Source: Nannobrachium achirus (Eukaryota; Chordata; Actinopteri; Myctophiformes; Myctophidae). From it: 64,000 nucleotides of DNA. A program made the translations under genes and the position numbers. Below the pieces are notes generated by a model. The model was given only the letters and a program-made list of their open reading frames with translations. It made no database searches and was not told the origin of the DNA. The stretch covers positions 58,381,927 through 58,445,926 of the forward strand of contig OY997642.1 in NCBI GenBank assembly GCA_963921795.1, given 5' to 3'. Positions within the stretch are counted from its first letter, which is position 1. Every line of letters begins with the position of its first letter. This document shows, piece by piece, positions 17,431-61,941 of the stretch.

Positions 17431-18104
17431 ACAGTATACCCCTAGAGGCTGGATAAGTGGGGGCTTTATGGGGTTATCTTTGTGCCATAATTAATTCGTA
17501 TTCGTACTTTTCCTTTTTTTTACTCGTAAACATTTTTACCAAAAAAATTACACGTAAACAAATTAATTCGAAAAAACTATACGTAAAAAAAAAAAAGTAC
17601 GAATGTTTTTTTGGAAGCTGCAGTGATTATTATGCCAAAACTAAAAAGGAAAGCCAAAATACTAATATTTTCTTACTGTTTTACGAGTTGTTTTTTTGGT
17701 TACTTCATCACGAATGCTTTCATCAGATGCACGACTGCAAATCTCAGTCAGCAGTTAGGAAACTGCCAAAAATCACATGATCAGCAGAGAGCCAATGATG
17801 TGAGGCCTGTCCCACTAGCCAATCAAAAGGCTCCGGAGTTGGCATGGCAACCAGCTGTTGCCATGTCTTGTAAAAGTGAGTACTCTGGGCTTTCTTATAC
17901 ATCATTTTAGCTAATTCCATCACCAGTCCCTATGGAAGTCTAAATGCTCAAAAAATAATACATAAATACTACAATGAAATGAAATAAAAGAAATAACAAA
18001 ATGATATAAATAAAAAATAAATAGTTCTATAGATCTAATCATTTCTATAATTGTATTAAATAAGAGAAGTACTCTTTGTATTGTACTTCTTTTAAATAAA
18101 GGGG

Positions 18105-18520
18105 CCTCGGCATCGGCCAAGGGACCCCCCGGGGACCCCCTGGAGCTCTGGGGAGTTCCGGGGACCCCCGCGGACCCCCTGGCGCCGCCGCAAAGGGGCT
18201 CCGAAGGGGCCCAAAAATAGGAGCGGCACTTTCATGGGAAATTTGGGACTTTGACCGTGCGGACCCCTCCATGGGTGACGGGACCGGGGCAAACGTGACA
18301 GCGCGGCCTGGTGGCTGCTCCCCTGTACTGCAGCGCACATAAAAACTCATAACTCGGGCTAGGAGCGACCGTTCGAGACGGGACTGGTACCCACATGTCC
18401 GGCTCGGGGCCCCGTGGAGGAGCGCCACCTGGTGGCCGAATGCCGGTACTGCAGGCGGGTAAAAAAGGCCGTAACTCTGCCCCCGAGCCACCGGGAGAGA
18501 CGGGGCCGGCTGCGGGGGGG
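18105..18520. repeat. GC-rich block, left arm of the foldback element
   Basis: It is very rich in CCCC/GGGG (for example GGGACCCCCCGGGGACCCCC). It is mirrored at 20518-20945 with a few small indels. Long frames on both strands follow from GC content and are not conserved as protein. Confidence 0.85.
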
Positions 18521-19797
18521 TCCTTGACCTTAATTGGTGCGACAGGAAGTGCCCTTCGCCAAACAGGAAGTGCCTCTATATCTCATGAACCGTTTGTCGT
18601 ACAGACGTGTGGGTGGCGTCATATCACATGATTAAGAGTCCTTGACCTTAATTGGTGCAACAGGAAGTGCCCTTCGCCAAACAGGAAGTGCCTCTATATC
18701 TCATGCACCTTTTGTCGTACAGATGCGTGAGTGGCGTCATATCACATGATTAAGAGTCCTTAACCTTAAATGGTGCTTCCTTCGCCAAACAGGAAGTGCC
18801 CTTCGCCAAACAGGAAGTGCCTCTATATCTCAAGAACCGTTTGTCGTACAGACGCGTGGGTGGCCTCATATTACTTGATTAGGAGTCCTTGACCTTAATT
18901 GGTGCAACAGGAAGTGCCCTTCGCCAAACAGGAAGTGCCTCTATATCTCATGAACCGTTTGTCGTACAGACGCGTGGGTTGCGTCATGTGACTTGATTGG
19001 GAGTCCTTGACCTTAATTGGTGCAACAGGAAGTGCCCTTCGCCAAACAGGAAGTGCCTCTATATCTCATGAACCGTTTGTCGTACAGACACGTGGGTGGC
19101 CTCACATTACTTGATTAGGAGTCCTTGACCTTAATTGGTGCAACAGGAAGTGCCCTTCGCCAAACAGGAAGTGCCTCTATATCTCATGAACCGTTTGTCG
19201 TACAGACTCGTGGGTTGCGTCATGTGACTTGATTGGGAGTCCTTGACCTTAATTGGTGCAACAGGAAGTGCCCTTCGCCAAACAGGAAGTGCCTCTATAT
19301 CTCATGAACCGTTTGTCGTACAGACGCGTGGGTGGCCTCATATTACTTGATTAGGAGTCCTTGACCTTAATTGGTGCAACAGGAAGTGCCCTTCGCCAAA
19401 CAGGAAGTGCCTCTATATCTCATGAACCGTTTGTCGTACAGACGCGTGAGTGGCGTCATATCACATGATTAAGAGTCCTTAACCTTAATTGGTGCTTCCT
19501 TCGCCAACAGGAAGTGCCCTTCACCACACAGGAAGTGCCTCTATATCTCAAGAACCGTTTGTCGTACAGACACGTGGGTGGCCTCATATTACTTGATTAG
19601 GAGTCCTTGACCTTAATTGGTGCAACAGGAAGTGCCCTTTGCCTAACAGGAAGTGCCTCTATATCTCATGCACCTTTTGTCGTACAGATGCATGGGTGGC
19701 GTCATATCACATGATTAAGAGTCCTTAACCTTAATTGGTGCTTCCTTCGCCAAACAGGAAGTACCCTTGCCAAACAGGAAGTGCCTCTATATCTCTT
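18521..19797 (+). repeat. 119-bp minisatellite, forward array, about 11 units
   Basis: The unit contains TCCTTGACCTTAATTGGTGC, the pair ACAGGAAGTGCCCTTCGCC / AAACAGGAAGTGCC, and AACCGTTTGTCGTACAGACG. Units starting near 18.88-19.36 kb alternate two variants of the last third: GGCCTCATATTACTTGATTA and TGCGTCATGTGACTTGATTG. This is a two-unit higher-order repeat. Confidence 0.93.
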
Positions 19798-20517
19798 AAA
19801 CATGTGATATGGCGCCACCCACGCGTCTGTACGACAAACGGTTCATGAGATATAGAGGCACTTCCTGTTTGGCGAAGGGCACTTCCTGTTGCACCAATTA
19901 AGGTCAAGGACTCCTAATCAAGTAATATGAGGCCACCCACGCGTCTGTACGACAAACGGTTCATGAGATATAGAGGCACTTCCTGTTTGGCGAAGGGCAC
20001 TTCCTGTTGCACCAATTAAGGTCAAGGACTCCCAATCAAGTCACATGACGCAACCCACGCGTCTGTACGACAAACGGTTCATGAGATATAGAGGCACTTC
20101 CTGTTTGGCGAAGGGCACTTCCTGTTGCACCAATTAAGGTCAAGGACTCCTAATCAAGTAATATGAGGCCACCCACGCGTCTGTACGACAAACGGTTCTT
20201 GAGATATAGAGGCACTTCCTGTTTGGCGAAGGGCACTTCCTGTTTGGCGAAGGAAGCACCAATTAAGGTTAAGGTCCGACTCTTAATCATGTGATATGAC
20301 GCCACTCACGCATCTGTACGACAAAAGGTGCATGAGATATAGAGGCACTTCCTGTTTGGCGAAGGGCACTTCCTGCTGCACCAATTAAGGTCAAGGACTC
20401 TTAATCATGTGATATGACGCCACCCACGCGTCTGTACGATAAACGGTTCATGAGATATAGAGGCACTTCCTGTTTGGCGAAGGGTACTTCCTGTCGCACC
20501 AATTAAGGTCAAGGACC
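19798..20517 (-). repeat. 119-bp minisatellite, inverted array, about 6 units
   Basis: The same unit in reverse orientation (CGTCTGTACGACAAACGGTT ... GCACCAATTAAGGTCAAGGA). The array is about half the length of the forward one, so the palindrome is asymmetric. Confidence 0.93.
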
Positions 20518-20945
20518 CCCCCGCAGCCGGCCCCGTCTCTCCCGGTGGCTCGGGGGCAGAGTTACGGCCTTTTTTACCCGCCTGCAGTACCGGCGTTCGG
20601 CCGCCAGGTGCCGCTCCTCCACGGCCGGCTCCGGGGCCCCGAGCCGGACACGTGGGTACCAGTCCCGTCTCGAACGGTCGCTCCTAGCCCGAGTTATGAG
20701 TTTTTATGTGCGCTGCAGTACCGGGGGGCCGCCACCAGGCCGCGCTGTCACGTTTGCCCCGGTCCCGTCACCCATGGAGGGGGTCCGCACGGTCAAAGTC
20801 CCAAATTTCCCATGAAAGTGCCGCTCCTATTTTTGGGCCCCTTCGGAGCCCCTTTGCGGCAGCGCCAGGGGGTCCGCGGGGGTCCCCGGAGCTCCCCAGA
20901 GCTCCAGGGGGTCCCCGGGGGGTCCCTTGGCCGATGCCCCTTTAT
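20518..20945. repeat. GC-rich block, right arm of the foldback element
   Basis: Mirror of 18105-18520. It differs by small insertions such as the CACGGCCGGCTCC region near 20620. Confidence 0.85.
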
Positions 20946-21647
20946 TTAAAAGAAGTACAATACAAAGAGTACTTCTCTTATTTAATACAATTATAGAAAC
21001 GATTAGATCTATAGAACTATTTATTTTTTATTTATATCATTTTGTTATTTCTTTTATTTAATTTCATTGTAGTATTTATGTATTATTTTTTGAGCATTTA
21101 GACTTCCATAGGGACTGGTGATGGAATTAGCTAAAATGATGTATAAGAAAGCCCAGAGTACTCACTTTTACAAGACATGGCAACAGCTGGTTGCCATGCC
21201 AACTCCGGAGCCTTTTGATTGGCTAGTGGGACAGGCCTCACATCATTGGCTCTCTGCTGATCATGTGATTTTTGGCAGTTTCCTAACTGCTGACTGAGAT
21301 TTGCAGTCGTGCATCTGATGAAAGCATTCGTGATGAAGTAACCAAAAAAACAACTCGTAAAACAGTAAGAAAATATTAGTATTTTGGCTTTCCTTTTTAG
21401 TTTTGGCATAATAATCACTGCAGCTTCCAAAAAAACATTCGTACTTTTTTTTTTTTACGTATAGTTTTTTCGAATTAATTTGTTTACGTGTAATTTTTTT
21501 GGTAAAAATGTTTACGAGTAAAAAAAAGGAAAAGTACGAATACGAATTAATTATGGCACAAAGATAACCCCATAGGGCTTCCATCTTGGAAGAGCAGTAG
21601 GAGGAATTTGTTCTTCCACATGGGTTTGAATCCTATGTACTGTATAG

Positions 21648-31131: not shown

Positions 31132-31345
31132 CTTCAGTGTTCTCCTCCTCTTCTGAAAGTCTGACCACCAGCCTCACTTGTTCCTCCTGTGAAGATCTGA
31201 CCTCCATCTTCAGTGTTCTCTTGTGAAGCTCTGACCTCCATCTTCAGTGTTCTCCTGTGAAGCTCTGACCTCCATCTTCAGTGTTCTCTTGTGAAGCTCT
31301 GACCTCCATCTTCAGTGTTCTCCTGCATGTGAAGCTGTGCTCTCC
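31132..31345 (+). repeat. 34-bp minisatellite just upstream of the gene start
   Basis: The unit CTTCAGTGTTCTC(C/T)TGTGAAG + CTCTGACCTCCAT is repeated about five times and stops 9 nt before the ATG at 31354. If transcription starts upstream, the array is in the 5' leader. No clear TATA box was seen ahead of it. Confidence 0.9.
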
Positions 31346-31353
31346 AGGTGAAG

Positions 31354-31545
31354 ATGAGGAGACTTGTGGTGTCCATGTTGTTCTTCCTGTCCGCTGCGCT
31401 CAGCCTGGCATCAGAACTGCATCACAACAACTACTACTGGCTGGAGCCTAAGGTCAAGAAGTTTGTGGATCAGGCGATCGTGAGAGCTAATGGACAACTG
31501 AATTACGGCCATCTGAATTACGAAGGAATTGGTCTAATAGCAGAG
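31354..31545 (+). CDS. Exon 1: signal peptide and start of cystatin-like domain
   Basis: The start is the ATG that gives MRRLVVSMLFFLSAALSLAS, a clear signal peptide with cleavage near residue 19. The exon continues to residue 64 (GLIAE) and ends at GAG|GTAACG, phase 0. Length (192 nt), signal plus about 45 residues of a KVKKFVDQAIVRAN-type helix, and the following small Cys exons match the exon plan of chemerin (RARRES2) and cathelicidin precursors, both cystatin-fold. I see no classic cystatin QxVxG motif, so protease inhibition is not implied. Exons 2-5 follow at 32952, 34465, 34897 and 36554 with matching phases, predicting a 1051-residue secreted protein. The chemerin/cathelicidin kinship is inferred from the Cys spacing and exon structure; a new cystatin-fold family is also possible. 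Confidence 0.75.
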
Positions 31546-31571
31546 GTAACGTTGTTGCATATATGCTATAT

Positions 31572-32026
31572 CAGGGGTGTCCAAAGTGCAGCCCGGGGAC
31601 CAAATACGTCCACGGACACTTTCACACAATTTTATACATTGTATTATAAATGGCGCACCAGCACCTCCAAACAAGAATATTTTCCCAGAGTATAGTTTTT
31701 CAGTATTCCTTGTTCCCTGTCGTGTCATCCTGAATGGCTCAAAGAAAGGATATTTTATTGTATTCTTTTACCTTTCACATCTGGTTACATTTGGTAATGT
31801 GAAATAATAATAGTTAGTTGTGTTTTGTACTGAGAACACACCTGACAAAAGGAATTAAATATTGCTGATGATGGTTAAATACAATGGTTTAAATGTGATG
31901 CATATGTACTGTATGTGACTTTGTTATGGTCCAACCAAATGTACTTATGTCAGGAGATGTAGTTGGCCCTTTGGTGGGCTAATATTTTCTAATGTGGCCT
32001 CCTTTGAAAAGGTTTGGACACCCCTG
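31572..32026. mobile_element. hAT MITE in intron 1
   Basis: The ends are CAGGGGTGTCCAAAGTGCAG and AAAGGTTTGGACACCCCTG. The target duplication is TGCTATAT / TCCTATAT (one mismatch). Confidence 0.85.
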
Positions 32027-32394
32027 TCCTATATTATTGTATTGATGTGTCAACCATGCAAGCTGGGTTGTTTTCATGGATGCAGCTTTATTCCACAACA
32101 GATCAGAGCCTTTATTTGTTTAAATAATGTAACTGCTGAATTTATTGATCAGAAACAAAACGTTTTATTTACTATGGACTATGGTGGACACAGACGACAC
32201 ATATTTGCAGAGCAAAGATAGATACGAACTGTGCGTGCGTGCGTGCATGGGTGGGTGGGTGCATACACACCACATTTTGTGTGTAGCCTATGTTCTTGTA
32301 GTTCATAATTCATTAGGAAAATTCATGTTTTTAAGGTTTTCAGGAAAGAAGAAATAATGAAATTCAATTTCTGCTGAAGTCATCTAGGTCAGTG

Positions 32395-32813
32395 CAGGAG
32401 TGGACTGGGCATCTGGCTTACCGGGCATATGCCCGGTGGGCCCACTATACAAGTTGGCCTGTGGGGCCTTAAAATTAACATTTTAGAATAGTTACAGTAT
32501 TTTGGGTGCTGGACTGGGCGAACACTAAGTGGAGTGGGCCAATCCTTTAGTAGCACTGGGCCACAGAGCAGAGGGACATTACATGATTGACCCACTGGCT
32601 TGTCTATCATCTTAATACCAGCCTAGTAGCCAATCACAGGCTATGGTGGCCCAGGAGTCCCACCCAAACATTTAACAGCATACAAGCCCACAACGCGCCG
32701 CTGCCTCGATGCGTTGTGGGCTCGTAGATCTTCTATGTTTGGTTCCCCCCGGTTGTGGTGGGCCGGTCTGGGCCAAGATGCCAGGGCCCATTTTATGTCC
32801 CAGTCCGGCCCTG
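32395..32813. mobile_element. hAT MITE in intron 1, with palindrome
   Basis: The ends are CAGGAGTGGACTGGGCATCT and GTCCCAGTCCGGCCCTG. The exact 8-bp target duplication GGTCAGTG is at 32387-32394 and 32814-32821. The short palindrome lies at 32675-32740 (CATACAAGCCCACAACGCGC / GCGTTGTGGGCTCGTAGATC). Confidence 0.92.
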
Positions 32814-32951
32814 GGTCAGTGTTTCCCAAACAGTGGGTCGGGACCGAATTGTGGGTCATGGATACATTTTCACCGGTAACGACTCAAGTAAAAACCCATC
32901 CTGTGTCCATGTCATGATCATGGTTCTGTTTCGTGTCCTGTTCTCCAACAG

Positions 32952-33050
32952 GTCTCTCGCCGCCAGGTGAGAATAGACGTGCGTTTGAGAGCAACGACCT
33001 GCAGAAAGGATCCTGGTAAAACACATCGGCCTGAGTGTACTTTGAAAAAG
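32952..33050 (+). CDS. Exon 2: cystatin-like domain, first Cys pair
   Basis: The acceptor is TTCTCCAACAG|GTC and the donor is AAG|GTAAGT. The 99-nt exon is phase 0 at both ends. It encodes residues 65-97, VSRRQVRIDVRLRATTCRKD then PGKTHRPECTLKK. The pattern beta-strand, then TTC-R-K (Cys81), then PEC (Cys93) closely follows human chemerin (LEFKLQQTSCRKRDWKKPEC), and cathelicidins have a similar paired-Cys loop in their second exon. Codons and splice sites are intact, so the exon looks functional. An acceptor at 33578 would give an alternative short ending; see findings. Confidence 0.75.
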
Positions 33051-33112
33051 GTAAGTGTGAAATACTGCAGAATGCAGCATGAAGCAACAAGCTGTTGGTT
33101 GTTATAAAACTA

Positions 33113-33250
33113 CAATTTACAACTTAGGCATTTATCAGACACTCTTAAATCCAGAGTGATTTACAGGAAACAAGGTCAACACAAGGAAATCCATCTAATG
33201 CATAGAGATAGTAGACTAATAGAGTAATCCAAGAACATATACAGTCATTG
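33113..33250. repeat. Dispersed repeat in intron 2
   Basis: TTTACAACTTAGGCATTTAT and CAGAGTGATTTACAGGAAAC form a common fish repeat, with a second copy at 16.16 kb. Confidence 0.6.
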
Positions 33251-33543
33251 TACCTTGAAAGTGCTAACCCTAGCACAACTATGGCACCAGCTCATTTTCA
33301 GGTACCACTTTGTTACATGCCACAACCACTAGGTGGTGTCAGAGAGCAACTAATGCCCAGACACAGGCAAATGAGACAGGTTTGTTGCTTTCCTTGTAGA
33401 TTATTACATTTTCAAGAATGTGAAGTCATGTTGAGCCAGAAACAAGCTTTCAGTCAACAGCAATAGTTGATAGCAAGAGATAGTGGGCTAATCTAGTAAA
33501 CCAAGAAAATAATAGCATCTGTCTAGTAAACAGTGAAGGCCTG

Positions 33544-33548
<5 letters not shown>

Positions 33549-33576
<28 letters not shown>

Positions 33577-33578
33577 GG
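33549..33578. repeat. (CT)n tract ending in AG
   Basis: A CT run is followed directly by AG|GTCGTCCTCAGACGAGCC. It is a ready-made polypyrimidine tract and acceptor inside intron 2. Confidence 0.85.
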
Positions 33579-34407
33579 TCGTCCTCAGACGAGCCTTCCA
33601 TCCTTCCACTGAAAGAGCTATATTCTGACATTTAAACTATTCTCACACTATAGGATGCAAGATCTACAAATGAATCTGCCATCAGTTTACATACCATATA
33701 ACATATCTATCTAAATTACTTGTTAACCTTTGCATAAGCCTACAAGGTCTTCAAGCCCAGGACAAGAACTACCCGGAGATGTGTGCACGACTTTGGGTCA
33801 TGTGCATGGAACTAGCAATAATGAACTAAACATACTAAACATGTAACCAGTAAGATGCCTAAGGGCTTGGCCATATATGGATTCTGTTAGTGTGGATCTC
33901 CATATATGGGCATAAAAGGGATTATATTAGTGTGGTTCCCCTGACATCACAGTGATGTCACAGTGTGATGTCAGAGCGTAACAGTAACCATACATATTGA
34001 GGCGTTACAAAGATACATACTAATAAGGTGTGACAGTTCTCATACTTAACTGTGACCTATGATCGCAACCACACTCCTGTCAGGTTTTTAGATCATGCTA
34101 TTTATTATTTTACATTTTACATGAAATAATGATGACATCACTGGAAGGAGTAAACAAATTAAAACCAGACCGGTGCATCCGTCTGTCTGGCAGGCACTCA
34201 TTTATGCCCATATATGGTGTTCCGTGTCCAGGCCAGTCTGTGATGTCATCTCCAAATTTGGGCACTGTAGTGATGTCAGTCAGTGATGTCAGTTGGGCAT
34301 TGTTACCATGGTGGAGACACTGTTTAGTATCAGTGATGTCACCATGCAGACATTTTAGTAAATATATAGTTATTAGATATTATCTCCCATCTACTTGCTA
34401 AATGTTC

Positions 34408-34408
34408 A

Positions 34409-34462
<54 letters not shown>

Positions 34463-34464
34463 AG
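34408..34464. repeat. (CTGT)n forming the exon 3 acceptor
   Basis: CTGT repeats run up to TCAG at 34461-34464, immediately before exon 3, so the microsatellite is the polypyrimidine tract. Confidence 0.92.
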
Positions 34465-34551
34465 CTCTGTGTTCGATGCATGGTGTGTGGCCGGTGTCCA
34501 GAAAGCGAGGATCCTTCCATCGACTGTGTTCGAAGAAAAGACGAGGAGACG
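34465..34551 (+). CDS. Exon 3: Cys-rich segment
   Basis: An 87-nt phase-0 exon, residues 98-126: LCVRCMVCGRCPESEDPSID then CVRRKDEET. The acceptor is the CTGT repeat ending in CAG and the donor is ACG|GTAAAC. It has five Cys (99, 102, 105, 108, 118) in a CxxCxxCxxC run unlike most cystatin-fold proteins. Chemerin has CLACIKL....VHC at the equivalent place, so two Cys are shared and the others are extra. The tight Cys run could bind metal or form nested disulfides; this is inference. Another (TGTC)n tract follows the donor at 34590-34681. Confidence 0.72.
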
Positions 34552-34589
34552 GTAAACACCTTTTACCTGTCTGTCTGCCTGTCTGCCTC

Positions 34590-34597
34590 CCTCCTCC

Positions 34598-34681
<84 letters not shown>
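34590..34681. repeat. (TGTC)n microsatellite in intron 3
   Basis: A near-pure TGTC/CTGT run 38 bp downstream of the exon 3 donor. With the tract at 34408-34464 it brackets the exon. Confidence 0.95.
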
Positions 34682-34896
34682 TGTTACTTAGCCAACTCCA
34701 TTTTCAGGTTTTAGATTTCTTTTCATAAATCAGTTCTATTGAACACCCTTTATGTCTGTGTTTTGGTTAAAATAATATTGAACCAATGAAAAGTTGTAAA
34801 AAGCTCTTCGGCCGATTATTATTATTATTATTACCCTTATTATAACATGTGGTACTTTAAACTTATATAACACGTTTACATCTTGTTTGCTTTCAG

Positions 34897-35008
34897 CGTA
34901 ATGCTGTGTGGGACAGACAGTGTAAGCCTGCACCCCCTCTCGGTGGATCATATTCACTGTTAAGTAGCGGCGGATTGGAATGTCCACGACCACAATTAAT
35001 GTATCCAG
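34897..35008 (+). CDS. Exon 4: end of Cys-rich domain
   Basis: The acceptor is TTGTTTGCTTTCAG and the donor is CCAG|GTGATC. The 112-nt exon ends in phase 1 and encodes residues 127-163: RNAVWDRQCKPAPPLGGSYS then LLSSGGLECPRPQLMYP, with Cys135 and Cys155. Chemerin has a Q-C pair here (HQETQC). If the donor is ignored, the frame runs on for about 20 codons to a stop near 35069 with no nearby AATAAA. I therefore favour splicing to 36554, because the one leftover base and the two leading bases of exon 5 complete a Val codon. A retained-intron form ending at the early stop cannot be excluded. Confidence 0.65.
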
Positions 35009-35014
35009 GTGATC

Positions 35015-35129
35015 ACAGAGCTTTAGCCTTGATGTCTGACTGTACCTCCATGCTGTTGATGTCTATATGAGTAATGAAGTATTGTCCTTTTAGCCTTAAT
35101 GTCTGACTGTACCTCTGTATTGTTTACAT
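35015..35129 (+). repeat. Tandem intronic repeat split by a MITE
   Basis: The unit TTTTAGCCTTAATGTCTGAC / TGTACCTCTGTATTGTTTAC occurs at about 35022 and 35090, and again at 36476 beyond the MITE. Each unit contains an acceptor-like TTTTAG. Confidence 0.8.
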
Positions 35130-36437
35130 GCGCGCAGGAGATAGGGGGGGATGGGGGGGATTAACACCTCCACTTTTTTTGGGTGGGGGGGATATCCCCC
35201 CCAGTCAGGGGCGAAAATGGGAAATGTTGTCCCCTCCATTCACTTCCAGAAGACCCCCCTGTCCCCCCCAGTCAGGGACATAGTGGTCTAAATTCTGAAA
35301 TCATGCACTAAACACGATCGAAGCGATTTACAGATGCTATTATAATGAGAACACCCCTCTGTTTTCCTGCAAAATGGTTTGGTCTGTGTTGCCAAGTTCT
35401 TAGAAACAAGCAGCCAGCTATATGAAAACCACAATATTCCAGGGTGGTTTTCATATAGCTGGCTGCTTGTTTCTCTCGCAAAATCTGGCAACAACAAGAA
35501 ACGATAGTTTCTCTAAGTTGGTTCTGCCATTTCAAATAGTTAATAAGGAATGCCGCCACCCTGGACAAGGAAAGGATTTGTTGTTTTTGTTGCCACCCTG
35601 GCCCTGGACAAGGAAGCTAAAGGATTACTTTGTTGTTATTTGGGCTGTGTGTGAGAGGACTGGAGGAGGAGGAGGAGGAGGAGGAGGAAGGATGTTCAAT
35701 TCTCAAGCCGGTAATGAATGACATTTATACCGTATTGTGTTCTGGACTGGTGGCCTGTTCTAACCTGTGCTGTGCCAACTGCTTGTGGACTGTATCATTG
35801 TATTGTGTGTTCAGTGTTCTGACGGCTGAGCGGCTGTCATGCTTCTGAGTTCTGAGTACTGTATTTTATTGTGGCCACTGGCCAGTGTTTTGAGTGATGA
35901 ACGGTCGCTGTGCCAAATTGCTGCTATAGTCGGTGTTCTTGAGGTAAAAAGTTAACCATAGAAACATGAAAGAAACGTTGGTTATGACGAGAGGACTGTT
36001 TAATGTCAGTGTTTGTGTTGAAGTGTGTTTTAAGCTTTGGTTGTGTTGGTTATTGCAGTACTAGTGATAACTTGATAAGTAAATAAATAATACATCATAA
36101 TTAATGCGACGCGATAGTGACAAGCAGTTAAAAAAAGGTTAAAAGGGTTAAAAAAAGTGCTGCAGCTGTTGGCCTGTTACTCCTTCAATAAAAAGATCTA
36201 ATATAGACTTAATGAATTCATGTGTATTTCATTTTAAAAATGCCTTGACATCTGCATAAAACAACTGTGTAATTCAGCTCAAGTGGAGGGGATATGTCCC
36301 CCCCTCCTCGGGGCAAAAGTGGGGGGGATATCACCAAAAGTGGGGGGGATACCCCAATTTTTTTCGCGCGCGCTATGCGCGCGCACATACCTCCCAGATA
36401 TGTCCCCTTCACTTTTAAAATGCCTCCTGCGCCCCTG
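35130..36437. mobile_element. 1.3-kb non-autonomous DNA element in intron 4
   Basis: ATTGTTTACAT stands on both sides (35119-35129 and 36438-36448). The ends carry GCGCAGGAG in inverted orientation. Both termini are rich in GGGGGGGATATCCCCCC-like runs, as in known fish MITEs. Internal inverted segments lie at 35,395-35,475 (AGCCAGCTATATGAAAACCA / TGGTTTTCATATAGCTGGCT), and there is a (GGA)n run at 35,663-35,690. No transposase frame is visible. Confidence 0.75.
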
Positions 36438-36553
36438 ATTGTTTACATTTATGAGTAAAAGTATTGTGTTCTCATTTTAGCCTTAATCTCTGACTGGACC
36501 TCTGTTTACATTTATGACTAATAACATATTCAATCATTCTTTTTCTATCCAAG

Positions 36554-39219
36554 TCTCTCATCGCATCGAGATGAGCGCCTCTCATCACATCGCGATGAGC
36601 ACGACGGAACGGGTTGTCAACCAGGTTGTCAGGATGGATTATGAAGACAACTTTCAGGAAGTCCACAATGGTTTGCCAACTATCGGTGTCTCCCCCTCCA
36701 TAAACGGGGTTTCTGAGGGCCAGCAGCAGGGGCGTCAGGTGCTCCACGGTTCCAACTTCACCATCAGCTGCTCCAACTACATGATGGAACCAATATTGGT
36801 TCCAGTTACTAATACTTCAAACAGCACAGAGCTCCTAGAAGGCTTCTATCTCACATTTGATTCTGGATCCAACACAACACATGGACACGTCCAGTCTTAT
36901 TTTGACGACAGAAAGCCTGGCCCTGCCGACTTCCTGTTTCCTGCAGCAGACCACACCCACCAAGGGATCTACACATGTGTTTATAGCGTCACTCTAAATG
37001 GTCAGGTCTACAGCGAAGAGCGGCAGAGCAAGCCGCTCTCTCTCAGTGTCATAGTTACAGATAAGGTGCCAGCTATCAGTGTCTTCCCGTACATATTCCC
37101 GTACATTCCCGTACCTGAGGACCGGCAACAGGCGCAGGAGTTGAAGGAGGGTTCCATCTTCACCATCAGCTGCTCCATCCAGGAACAACGTCCACACAGC
37201 TCCTTCCACCTCACAGTCGGTTCTGGATCCAACGTTGAACACAGTCACAAACAGCCATGTGTCAATGGCTCTGCCCACTTCCGGTTTCCTGTAGCAGACC
37301 ACACCCACCAAGGCGTCTACAGATGTGTTTATGGGGTCACTATAGACGGTCATGTCTACACCAGGCCGAGCGAGCCGCTCTCTCTCAGTGTCACAGTTAC
37401 AGATAAGGTGCCAGCTATCAGTGTCTTCCCGTCCATAAAAGGGTTTCGCTACTACGGGTTGCTGCAGGAGCAGCGGCAGGTGGTTGAGGGTTCCATCTTT
37501 ATCATTAGCTGCTCCATCGAGGAACAACGTCCACACAGCTCCTTCCACCTAACAGTCGGTTCTGGATCCAACGTTGAACACAGTCACACACAGCCATGTG
37601 TCAATGGCTCTGCCATCTTCCTGTTTCCTGTAGCAGACCACACACACCAAGACGTCTACACATGTGTTTATGGGGTCACTATAGACGGTCATGTCTACAC
37701 CAGACAGAGCGAGCTGCTCTCTCTCAGCGTCACGGTTACAGATCTGACGCCAGCTATCAGTGTCTTTCCCTCCATAAACAGGGTTTCTGAGGGTCAGCAG
37801 CAGGGGCAGCAGGTGCTCCACGGTTCCAGCTTCACCATCAGCTGCTCCATGGAGATGATGGCACGGATACCGATTCAAGTTACTGATAGGCTCCTACAAG
37901 GCTTCTATCTCACATTTGATTCTGGATCCAGCACAACAGACAGACACGCCCAGGCTGGCTCTGACGACTTCCTGTTCCCTGCAGCAGACCACACCCACCA
38001 AGGGAACTACACATGTTTTTATGGCGTCGCCATAAATGGTCAGGTCTACGGCAAACAGTGGCGGAGTGAGCCGCTCTCTCTCAGTGTCATAGTTACAGAT
38101 AAGGTGCCAGCTATCAGTGTCTTCCCGTCCATAAAAGGAGTTCCTGAGGACTGGCAGCAGGAGTGGTGGCAGGAGGAGGTGGAGGAGGAGTGGTGGCAGG
38201 AGACCAGAAACAAGGTTCCTGAGGAGCGGCAGCAGGTGTTGGAGGAGGGTTCCATCTTCACCATCAGCTGCTCCATCCAGGAACAACGTCCACACAGCTC
38301 CTTCCACCTCACAGTCGGTTCTGGATCCAACGATGAACACAGTCACACACAGCCATGTGTCAATGGCTCTGCCCATTTCCTGTTTCCTGTAGCAGACCAC
38401 ACCCACCAAGGCGTCTACAGATGTGTTTATAGCGTCACTATAGACGGTCATGTCTACAGCAGACAGAGTGAGCCGCTCTCTCTCAGCGTCTATCCGGCGC
38501 CAGCTATCAGTGTCTCCTCCATAAACGGGGTCTCAGAGGGCCAGCAGCAGGGGCAGCAGCAGGTGTTGGAGGAGGGTTCCATCTTCACCATCAGCTGCTC
38601 CATCCGGGAGGAACTCCCACACAGCTCATTCCACCTCACCTTCGGTTCTGGAGCCAACGCCAAACACAGCATCAAGCAGCCAAATGTCAATGGCTCCGCC
38701 CACTTCCCGTTTACAGCCGCAGAATACACCCACCAAGGCGTCTACGAATGTGTCCATGATGTCACCCTCGACGGTTATGTCTACACCAGAAGCAGTGAGC
38801 CGCTCTCTCTCACCGTCAGAGAGAGAGAGAAGATCACCAAAGGTCCGAGTGTTCCGACTATCAGCGTCTTCCCGTCCATAAACGGGCAGGTGTTGGAGGG
38901 CCTCAGCTTCACCATCACCTGCTCCATCCAACAAGACCACCCTCACAGCTTCTTCTACCTCACATTCGATAACAAAGTAAAAGAGAAAAAGCCATGCGTC
39001 AGTGGTTCTGTCAGCTTCCTGTTCCCTGAGGCAGACCACATCCATCAAGGCGTCTACAAATGTTTGTACGTCACTGTCACTGTCGACCGTCGCACATCCC
39101 GCTTCTGGAGTGGGCGCCTCCCTCTTGCCGTCACGGCTGCGTCCGTTGATTCTTTCCATGACGATTACGTTGAGCCCCCTGGTGCGCCCAATGACGATTA
39201 CGATGAATATGATAATTGA
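36554..39219 (+). CDS. Exon 5: seven tandem Ig-like domains and acidic tail
   Basis: The acceptor is TTCTTTTTCTATCCAAG|TC, whose phase fits exon 4. One open exon of 2666 nt encodes residues 164-1051 of the predicted protein. Seven Ig-like repeats of about 95-130 residues start near residues 205, 337, 451, 564, 683, 813 and 931. Each has ISVFPSI...., a B-strand Cys (FTISCS), a DHTHQGVYxCVY F-strand motif and SEPLSLSVTV, as in leukocyte-receptor/FCRL-like Ig domains. Domains 2, 3, 5 and 7 carry an extra Cys (QPCVNGS or KPCVSGS); domain 6 has Asn there. N-glycosylation sequons are frequent. There is no membrane span. The end, DDYVEPPGAPNDDYDEYDN, is acidic with Tyr, so sulfation is possible. The order is A-B-B-A-B-B'-C. 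All frames on the opposite strand are shadows. Confidence 0.88.
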
Positions 39220-39304: not shown

Positions 39305-39310
39305 AATAAA
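39305..39310 (+). terminator. Polyadenylation signal AATAAA
   Basis: It lies 86 nt after the stop codon of the Ig exon, the first AATAAA downstream, and just before a MITE. Confidence 0.65.
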
Positions 39311-46869: not shown

Positions 46870-47151
46870 TTACTCGGCCGACACGGCACGCCTCCTTCTC
46901 CTTCTCCTCACTGGTGCCATTGCCGCGGGTCTCCTGCGACGCCTGACGGACCTTCTGCGTCTCCTCCTGGTGGTCGTTGCGGCTGCAGCCGCACGTCTCC
47001 TCCTCCTCCTGGGCCTCGCGGACGCAGCGCGCCGCCTAGTCCTCCTCCTCCTGCGCCTGACCGGAGCCGCCGCCAGCGCGACTCTCCTCCTTCTCCTCCT
47101 CCTCGCCTCCGCCTTCGCCGGGGCAGCGGAGTAAACTGGGACGACGTCCAT
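46870..47151 (-). CDS. Protamine-like sperm nuclear basic protein, copy 1
   Basis: The 93-residue frame begins MDVVPVYSAAPAKAEA and continues as Arg blocks of 5-7 residues split by short Ala/Thr/Val/Pro spacers, including APVRRRRRRTRRRAASARPR. Fish protamines of the thynnin/mugiline type have the same style of block (ASRPVRRRRR) but are only about 34 residues. The predicted role is DNA compaction in spermatid nuclei. Single exon. The ATG lies about 125 bp downstream of a TATA box with a CRE 19 bp further up. The copy at 54.92 kb is 93 residues and almost identical after residue 12. The opposite strand is open as a Leu-rich frame, but promoter direction and homology to copy 3 favour this strand. 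An alternative for an isolated Arg-rich frame would be a viral core-like protein; nothing around it supports that. Confidence 0.78.
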   Translation of the reverse strand: MDVVPVYSAAPAKAEARRRRRRRVALAAAPVRRRRRRTRRRAASARPRRRRRRAAAAATTTRRRRRRSVRRRRRPAAMAPVRRRRRRRAVSAE

Positions 47152-47272
47152 TATTCTGTGACGCTTGAAAGCTCGATCGAAAATGAATTAATTACTGTCG
47201 CTGTTAACAAGTTGAACAACTAGTTACTTCGTAAGCAGAACTGTAATGATCGGCAGACTTGTTGCAGTGCCC

Positions 47273-54916: not shown

Positions 54917-55198
54917 TTACTCTGCCGACACGGCGCGCCTCCTTCTCCTTCTCCTCACTGGCGCCATTGCCGCGGGTCTCCTGCGACGCCTGACGGACCT
55001 TCTGCGTCTCCTCCTGGTGGTCGTTGCAGCCGCGCGTCTCCTCCTCCTCCTGGGCCTCGCGGACGCAGCGCGCCGCCTGGTCCTCCTCCTCCGGCGTCTG
55101 ACCGGAGCCGCCGCCAGTGCGGCTCTCCTCCTCCTCCGCCTCCTCGCCTCCGCCTTCACCGGGGTGAATCCAGCGGAAAGTATGGCCACGTCTGCCAT
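54917..55198 (-). CDS. Protamine-like sperm nuclear basic protein, copy 2
   Basis: 93 residues: MADVAILSAGFTPVKAEA, then Arg blocks in the same order as copy 1 (ALAAAPVRRRRRRTRRRAAS ... PAAMAPVRRRRRRRAVSAE). Differences from copy 1 are concentrated in the first 12 residues and one spacer (AAATTT against AAAAATTT). The ATG has A at -3 and G at +4. Single exon, minus strand, about 130 bp below a TATATAAA box with a CRE 22 bp further up. The intact Arg blocks, which are prone to slippage, suggest the gene is or was recently under selection. A plus-strand Leu/Ala-rich frame (54909-55211) covers the same bases and is taken as a shadow. Confidence 0.78.
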   Translation of the reverse strand: MADVAILSAGFTPVKAEARRRRRRRAALAAAPVRRRRRRTRRRAASARPRRRRRRAAATTTRRRRRRSVRRRRRPAAMAPVRRRRRRRAVSAE

Positions 55199-55327
55199 TG
55201 TTCACTTATGATGTGGATGAGCGATGAACGAATTGAACTCTTGAAGTAATCTGTAGCTAACTGGTTAAAGCAACTAATTTCCTCTGAGGCACAACTGTAT
55301 GAATGAGCAGAGTCGGCGCCACGTCGA

Positions 55328-61401: not shown

Positions 61402-61941
61402 TTAATTATTCGTCAGGTAATTGAGGGGGTTTACTGACGACAAATCGCCGGTGAGCCTCGACACGAAGTTCTGGCCGGATTCATTGGACTGGTCGAGATT
61501 GGTGGATCCGTCCGGCATCTGCCTCATCATGCCGCTATCCTTCCTCCGCCTACGTCCCACTTGCCTCTTCGGCGCCTTCCTTCTCGCGGGCTTCCTGCCG
61601 GGCTTCCTGCCGCGGCGCTTGGCGGACCTCCGGCGCCTCCTGGTGGCGGGCCTCCTGGCCGCCGCGCGTCTCTTCATCCTCCTCCTCCTCCTGGGCCTCG
61701 GGGACGCGGAGCGTCTCCTCGCGGACGCGGCGCGTCTCCTCTTGGCGGGGGTCCTCCTCCTCCTGCGTCTGACCGCCCTCCTGGGACTCGCGCTGATTCT
61801 CCTCCTCCTCCGGCCCCTCCTCGCCTCCGCTTTCTCCGGGGAAGCAGCGAGGGGGGAGGCGACGCCGACAAGCGGGGAGGCGGCGATTGGGGAGGCAGCG
61901 ATTGGGGAGGCAGCGACTGCCATCGGTGCTGCTTCTGCCAT
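61402..61941 (-). CDS. Protamine-like sperm nuclear basic protein, long copy 3
   Basis: The start is the ATG at 61941 (GGGTAATGGCAG), giving 179 residues. There are three parts. Residues 1-37 are an Ala/Ser/Pro leader with repeated ASPIA/ASPL units. Residues 38-134 are the basic core, PEKAEARRGRRRRRISASPR ... AVRRRRRRTPAKRRRAASAR, with SPRR/SPRP motifs like the phosphorylated SPKK motifs of sperm histones. It ends RGRKPGRKPARRKAPKRQVG, rich in Lys as well as Arg. Residues 135-179 are a neutral/acidic tail, MRQMPDGSTNLDQSNESGQN then FVSRLTGDLSSVNPLNYLTN. The core aligns with copies 1 and 2 (KAEARR, RRRRRRT, RRAASAR, PRRRRR), so it is probably the fuller form of the family. Single exon behind the same CRE-TATA promoter. 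I infer chromatin packing in spermatids. The tail has no homologue I recognise. Confidence 0.8.
   Translation of the reverse strand: MAEAAPMAVAASPIAASPIAASPLVGVASPLAASPEKAEARRGRRRRRISASPRRAVRRRRRRTPAKRRRAASARRRSASPRPRRRRRMKRRAAARRPATRRRRRSAKRRGRKPGRKPARRKAPKRQVGRRRRKDSGMMRQMPDGSTNLDQSNESGQNFVSRLTGDLSSVNPLNYLTNN

Follow-up and report, generated by a model that had tools for sequence, protein, structure and literature searches.

Among described proteins, the nearest candidate kin for one half of the gene reported here is chemerin (RARRES2), and the nearest for the other half are the immunoglobulin (Ig) domains of the KIR and LILR receptors. The gene lies in a window of 64,000 nucleotides from Nannobrachium achirus (C5:58381927-58445926, the whole stretch of DNA that was analysed; the searchable source genome measures 1.66 Gb). 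It would encode, all within one gene, a secreted two-part protein in which a chemerin-like head is followed by Ig domains of the KIR/LILR type and the chain closes with a short acidic stretch. We consider this reading as a whole likely from the sequence, and its core, that a single gene joins head and Ig array, is very probable.

With chemerin the predicted protein shares a signal-like N-terminus and six family-wide cysteines with a CxxC at the third and fourth; a short core divided among several coding exons, as a review describes it for chemerin (PMC9405667), may be a further likeness. It differs from chemerin in that the tail motif is absent and Ig domains stand in the tail's place, and the similarity is too weak for a firm family claim. 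Passages of the same review give chemerin both '5 of 6 exons coding' and 'four exons', and have it as not annotated in fish though its receptors are present (PMC9405667); another paper calls a flounder gene rarres2 (PMC10417057). Secreted phosphoprotein 24 (Spp-24) has a TTCRKD motif in common with the head and differs in the four conserved cysteines and the Ser-rich region described in passages on that protein (PMC13188829). As for the Ig half, the domains find their best PDB matches among KIR and LILR chains, whereas these receptors differ from the present protein in its lack of a transmembrane-like stretch (in the C5, C19 and C14 versions), its several domains per exon and its cystatin-like head. 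Soluble runs of Ig domains of the leukocyte receptor complex (LRC) type exist in alpha-1B-glycoprotein (A1BG) and its venom-inhibitor relatives oprin and DM43. These three proteins are not known to have a cystatin-superfamily head, nor is Spp-24 known to have Ig domains. The soluble immune-type receptor (SITR) of carp is also a secreted fish immune protein composed of Ig domains, but it has two of them, one close to CD300, and its abstract makes no mention of a chemerin-like head (PMC3031540).

The gene model in the window comprises the following parts:

31354..31545, forward strand: exon 1 (192 nt, phase 0 donor), which encodes the signal peptide and begins the chemerin-like domain; same length in the C19 and C1 relatives
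32952..33050, forward strand: exon 2 (99 nt), core with the TTCRK..PEC motif; aligned with chemerin
34465..34551, forward strand: exon 3 (87 nt), CxxC and more cysteines
34897..35008, forward strand: exon 4 (112 nt, phase 1 donor), which completes the chemerin-like core and adds the linker; fused with the Ig exon in C19
36554..39219, forward strand: exon 5 (2666 nt, phase 1 acceptor), which encodes the seven Ig-like domains and an acidic tail with Tyr residues and closes with a TGA stop; its domains recognised by Pfam and by PDB matches
31148..31322, forward strand: 34-nt tandem repeat, 5.1 copies, just 5' of the start codon, probable 5' untranslated region
39305..39310, forward strand: AATAAA polyadenylation signal, surrounding sequence kept in C19

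Read in sequence, the five exons join in phases 0, 0, 0 and 1, with GT-AG at all four introns, into an open frame of 1051 residues, and the join between exons 4 and 5 (35008/36554) splits a Val codon. The splice sites are ordinary: the donors of introns 1 to 4 match the consensus at 6, 9, 6 and 7 of 9 places, and the exon-5 acceptor has 14 pyrimidines out of 16. The exon lengths, start, end, join, phases, Val codon and product length given in a preliminary description of this DNA are all present. So are the seven Ig-like domains that it placed in one exon, where Pfam Ig_2 marks seven stretches of exon 5 (E 1.4e-30; Ig_3 marks six), and its acidic, Tyr-rich tail, with 9 Asp/Glu and 3 Tyr among the last 30 residues. 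The N-terminus is signal-like, and beyond residue 40 no 19-residue Kyte-Doolittle window exceeds 1.61 in the C5, C19, C1 or C14 proteins. DNA resembling the 5' tandem repeat also occurs in the C19 paralog, roughly 5 kb ahead of its first exon. The window was also scanned for Rfam families and tRNAs, with no match.

The argument for a single gene is carried by related loci in the same genome. A 16-base word from the Ig exon occurs at 103 genome places, some of them in close rows; ten other regions holding it were fetched, and two of them, at 60.76 Mb of C19 and 8.05 Mb of C1, also have each of the four upstream exons, in order, while the remaining eight (L013-L020) gave no head exon match at E up to 1. 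The C19 paralog consists of exons of 192, 99, 87 and 2859 nt, encoding 1078 residues without a stop, and the locus holds an open frame of 964 residues. There is no intron 4 here: the last part of the cystatin-like domain, all seven Ig domains and the stop codon lie together in the uninterrupted 2859-nt exon. The C1 exons measure 192, 99, 87, 106 and 1529 nt and give a protein of 670 residues with four Ig domains; intron 4, in phase 1, is 325 nt long. On C14, exons of 189, 102, 102, 100 and 368 nt, joined in phase 1 through an exon-4 donor that we chose among several phase-1 GTs, give one of 286 residues with a single Ig domain and the ending DDYDN. Four loci (C5, C19, C1 and C14) thus have the layout of head followed by Ig domains, with a phase-1 intron 4 in C5, C1 and C14. 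A fifth, on C20, is an intronless open frame of 294 codons that holds a whole cystatin-like domain, one Ig domain and an acidic Tyr tail (EDYDY), its blocks matching exons 1-5 of C14 one after another and none of the four introns being present. It is most simply read as having been copied from a spliced message, in which case messages holding both parts would be made; no poly-A run of 9 or more A was found in it. A sixth locus, on C10 (L051, C10:17404501-17410500), has exons 2-4 and one Ig exon.

Chance joining of exons is rejected on the same-order models of C19, C1 and C14 together with the intronless C20 copy. Two separate genes are rejected for C19, where a single exon is shared, and are judged unlikely in the window, where intron 4 without its repeat measures about 226 nt. 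The single gene proposed in the preliminary description therefore holds up: because C19 has both parts in one exon, a separate promoter or signal exon for the Ig part cannot apply there.

Genes with the head and no Ig domains are more numerous. A search with the head gave 108 genome matches at 29 places (hits up to 100 kb apart being counted as one place), 25 of them with a best E of 1e-3 or better. Six of these 25, namely C5, C19, C1, C14, C10 and C20, have an Ig match within 15 kb, the Ig places being 53 from one listing and 17 hand-picked from another, and there may be more Ig-bearing loci beyond the six. Two Ig-less members, modelled on C21 and C3, consist of four exons, the last of which closes with a short acidic tail. 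In another chemerin-like gene (L052, C15:44607001-44613000), the donor of exon 4 has the same phase-1 sequence as in the window gene, and no Ig exon was found in the roughly 11.5 kb downstream of that exon, up to 44621000. Two further observations concern the head family. At C3:20.70-20.93 Mb there is a tandem cluster with many chemerin-like head matches and no nearby Ig match among the matches listed. Separately, four copies of an element (L022, L024, L025 and L026, at C4:56167808, C8:53783023, C11:65108369 and C15:48994233), 99.3-99.7% identical over 2.7-3.4 kb, each hold an intact intronless chemerin-like open frame of 159 residues. In L024, the one copy checked, the frame lies between inverted repeats of about 820 bp that are 98.9% alike, and the element looks like a transposon that took up a host cDNA.

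The intron that separates the two halves of the window gene has been enlarged by an insertion:

35009..36553, forward strand: intron 4, 1545 nt; about 226 nt minus the inserted repeat and one copy of the duplication
35130..36437, no strand assigned: inserted repetitive element between 11-nt duplications ATTGTTTACAT (35119-35129 and 36438-36448), recognised by its genome copies and the duplication

The element has imperfect inverted ends. Queried as 35128-36437, a segment trimmed at the presumed edges, it has at least 121 genome matches (40 of 1215 candidates scored); four other copies cover 1307-1310 of the 1310 bases queried, and with a query so trimmed the matches do not reveal the limits of the other copies. 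The ends of the C5 intron are partly homologous to intron 4 of C1, and no homology was found between the C5 and C14 introns.

This intron could allow one gene to make two products, a short chemerin-like protein through intron-4 retention or early polyadenylation and the Ig-bearing protein through splicing. We regard such a switch as rather unlikely. It agrees with the short in-frame end that retention would give in C5 and C1 and with the fact that Ig-less relatives are the majority (6 of 25 head places with Ig within 15 kb), and the intron-4 donor, at 7 of 9 places, can be set beside the 6 of exons 1 and 3. It is, however, impossible for C19, which has no intron 4.

The identity of the head rests on its cysteines and on profile and alignment scores. 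Six cysteines (81, 93, 102, 105, 118 and 135) are invariant in eight aligned members, the third and fourth forming the CxxC, and their gaps are 11, 8, 2, 12 and 16 in C5 against 9, 10, 2, 15 and 17 in a PDB chemerin chain. Two additional cysteines, 108 and 155 in the numbering of the window protein, occur together in C5, C19, C1 and C15:44.6, as would fit a fourth disulphide, and one further cysteine (99) is the window protein's own. When the eight-member head profile was compared with the PDB at E up to 10, the three matches were two chemerin chains (0.11 and 0.12) and an unrelated protein (1.1); a single head sequence and a three-member profile gave no PDB match. By hhalign, chemerin scored 31.6 (E 1.4e-4, probability 52%), Spp-24 came second of four with 30.4, cystatin C scored 23.3 and cathelin 21.5 (probability 6%), the Spp-24 and cathelin sequences being provisional. 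Local alignments of three members against the same proteins, with the same two provisional sequences, gave 63-67 for chemerin, with none of 1000 shuffles as high for any member; 42-56 for Spp-24, with 7, 0 and 0 of 1000 as high; 34-36 for cystatin C, with 36-83 of 1000; and 25-27 for cathelin, with 566-633 of 1000. The exon layout can be set against that of chemerin by description only (192, 99, 87 and 2859 nt in C19; four exons in the C21 and C3 members).

'Chemerin-like' is therefore the best label for the head, resting on weak scores and the cysteine pattern. Of the earlier label 'chemerin/cathelicidin-like', the first part stands, chemerin being the best of the four proteins though weakly so, and the second is unsupported: cathelicidin as nearest kin does no better than shuffles and reaches 6% by hhalign. 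An inhibitory cystatin as nearest kin is unsupported too, its scores lying below those of chemerin and QxVxG, the motif with which inhibitory cystatins block cysteine proteases, being absent from all ten heads (the C10 head without exon 1).

Given this resemblance, the head might act as chemerin does, a leukocyte attractant being released when proteases cut the fast-changing linker, and the Ig array serving for targeting. The cysteine pattern, the weak similarity and a linker that is the least conserved part of the protein would suit this, but the chemerin tail motif is absent from all ten heads and from the four whole proteins of C5, C19, C1 and C14, and we hold it improbable. The same low probability attaches to a broader proposal, in which a chemerin-type cytokine would have been given a receptor's Ig array: the array would bind the target, the head, freed or exposed by proteolysis, would call leukocytes, the number of Ig domains would vary within one exon, and some members would switch between Ig-bearing and Ig-less forms by splicing of intron 4.

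Exon 5 divides into seven domains, 71-92% alike in DNA:

36676..37068, forward strand: Ig domain 1, class A, with domain 4
37069..37410, forward strand: Ig domain 2, class B, with domains 3 and 5
37411..37749, forward strand: Ig domain 3, class B
37750..38106, forward strand: Ig domain 4, class A
38107..38499, forward strand: Ig domain 5, class B
38500..38853, forward strand: Ig domain 6, grouping with C1 domain 3
38854..39216, forward strand: Ig domain 7, in the group of the single C14 and C10 Ig domains, and acidic tail

Their best PDB match is 1b6u_A (E 3.9e-8), followed by further KIR and LILR chains. Other Ig matches in the genome are 37-63% identical to the window exon, lie in clusters on C2, C1, C9, C21 and others, and mostly fall in open frames of about 120-250 residues, few being longer. 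A tree of 30 domains unites all 21 of the six loci in one group (100/100) and leaves outside it nine hand-picked Ig sequences from elsewhere in the genome. Within the group the classes are A (domains 1 and 4), B (2, 3 and 5), 6 and 7; C1 has the order A-B-6-7 with one domain of each, class 7 takes in the lone domains of C14 and C10, and that of C20 is unplaced. One capture of a class-7-like domain with later growth to four and seven domains fits this tree, and such a single capture is not proved by it, since nine comparison sequences are few.

Sequence divergence suggests that the protein is fast-evolving and probably under constraint. Over all aligned codons, the ratio of non-synonymous to synonymous substitution (dN/dS) is 0.71 (0.56-0.90) for C5-C19, 0.66 (0.53-0.82) for C5-C1 and 0.73 (0.57-0.94) for C19-C1, the pairs with C1 being rough because the alignment of its first Ig domain is broken up; the upper limits are below 1 in all three. 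For the Ig part it is 0.77 (0.58-1.02) in C5-C19; the two pairs that include C1, compared in the last three domains, have 0.62 (0.44-0.90) and 0.76 (0.52-1.20). The linker is near saturation (dN 0.86, dS 2.1). A once-working fusion that is now drifting would account for the values near or above 1 in some parts, the state of the C10 copy and the repeat inserted in intron 4. Against such decay stand an open frame of 1051 codons, GT-AG at four introns, frames that are also open in C19, C1 and C14, and whole-gene upper limits below 1 in three pairs, and we find it quite improbable.

Last, that two genes stand side by side here, one short and chemerin-like with its end in exon 4 or beyond, the other an Ig gene that begins in intron 4, is very improbable: unspliced exon 4 does reach an early stop in C5 and likewise in C1, two modelled Ig-less members end in exon 4, and intron 4 contains frames that open with ATG and a hydrophobic stretch and have a phase-1 GT (six in C5, at 35422-36003, five in C14), but C19 has no intron there, all six C5 frames lie within the inserted repeat, the C1 intron has none, and the intronless C20 copy holds both parts. 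The scan for such frames carries little weight in any case, for its positive control, exon 1, returned none, the exon 1 donor being phase 0.

Several points weigh against the favoured reading of a single gene for a chemerin-like head and an Ig array. The link to chemerin is weak (E 0.11-0.12; hhalign 52%). Pfam found no family on the window's own head at E up to 10, and the nearest Pfam match of the heads is not even a cystatin, the eight giving single weak matches to Mab-21_C (0.012), Cystatin (0.022) and Spp-24 (0.058, in one of the eight members) and three weaker ones. In the head tree the Ig-bearing loci do not form one group, an Ig-less copy on C4 standing beside C20 and C15:44.6 lying among them; the Ig-bearing label needs at least two changes on this tree, and because it splits these loci, loss of the Ig part or multiple gains are possible. 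The dN/dS of the head is 0.42 (0.21-0.87) for C5-C19, and the values of 1.3 (0.72-2.94) for C5-C1 and 0.78 (0.43-1.39) for C19-C1 leave relaxed constraint on it possible. In C5 and C1, a frame read on unspliced through the exon-4 donor comes to a short end with the cystatin-like part only. As for the models, that of C1 depends on which of two donors, 4 nt from each other, is used, the alternative giving a frame of 228 residues, and the C1 protein is the only one with a hydrophobic run at its end, a shorter one (11-residue window of 2.6 at 657), in which it is unlike C5 and C19; the C14 model depends on our choice of donor. The C10 copy looks damaged, its exon 4 running into a stop with the usual donor missing; its exon 1 was sought only within the fetched piece.

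In the single-gene reading that we favour, a member of a large chemerin-like family would have gained a phase-1 Ig-domain exon behind its fourth coding exon, and the captured exon would then have grown by internal duplication, with 1, 4 and 7 domains in the copies seen. The protein would be produced, and it would be a soluble one, in plasma or mucus; the solubility is what the signal-like N-terminus, the lack of a hydrophobic window above 1.61 and the KIR/LILR-like domains suggest. Its Ig array might bind host or microbial ligands in the manner of secreted LRC-type proteins such as A1BG, and the head could serve as a processed or signalling module, either keeping the protein folded and circulating or being freed by a protease. 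That the protein functions as a soluble immune-binding protein, the role also suggested in the preliminary description, is the function that we favour, offered tentatively as a possibility somewhat short of even.

Elsewhere in the window there are three Arg-rich, protamine-like open frames on the minus strand (46873-47187, 54920-55201 and 61405-61938), 6.5-8 kb apart; the first two are clearly alike by eye, and there was no Pfam match at E up to 1. Two copies of one open frame enclose, at 18045-20949, tandem arrays of a 118-nt unit that occur in both orientations.

Both halves of the protein are of known kinds, and their join is undescribed in the literature titles and abstract openings that we searched, where no cystatin-superfamily domain with an Ig array appeared, subscription papers and fish protein databases being beyond reach. 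In a 2009 survey of the cystatin superfamily, the words 'immunoglobulin' and 'chemerin' are absent from the main text (PMC2784779). An annotation of the gene under the name of an uncharacterised protein may well exist. The preliminary description knew of no described family with this combination, which agrees with our searches as regards the literature and has to be amended as regards the genome, where the window gene is one of several of its kind. The copies with one, four and seven domains, with and without intron 4, together with the intronless copy, would form a stepwise record of domain capture. A chemerin-like fish family with an Ig-bearing branch would bear on where fish chemerin went, and the same branch would bear on how receptor families yield soluble binding proteins.

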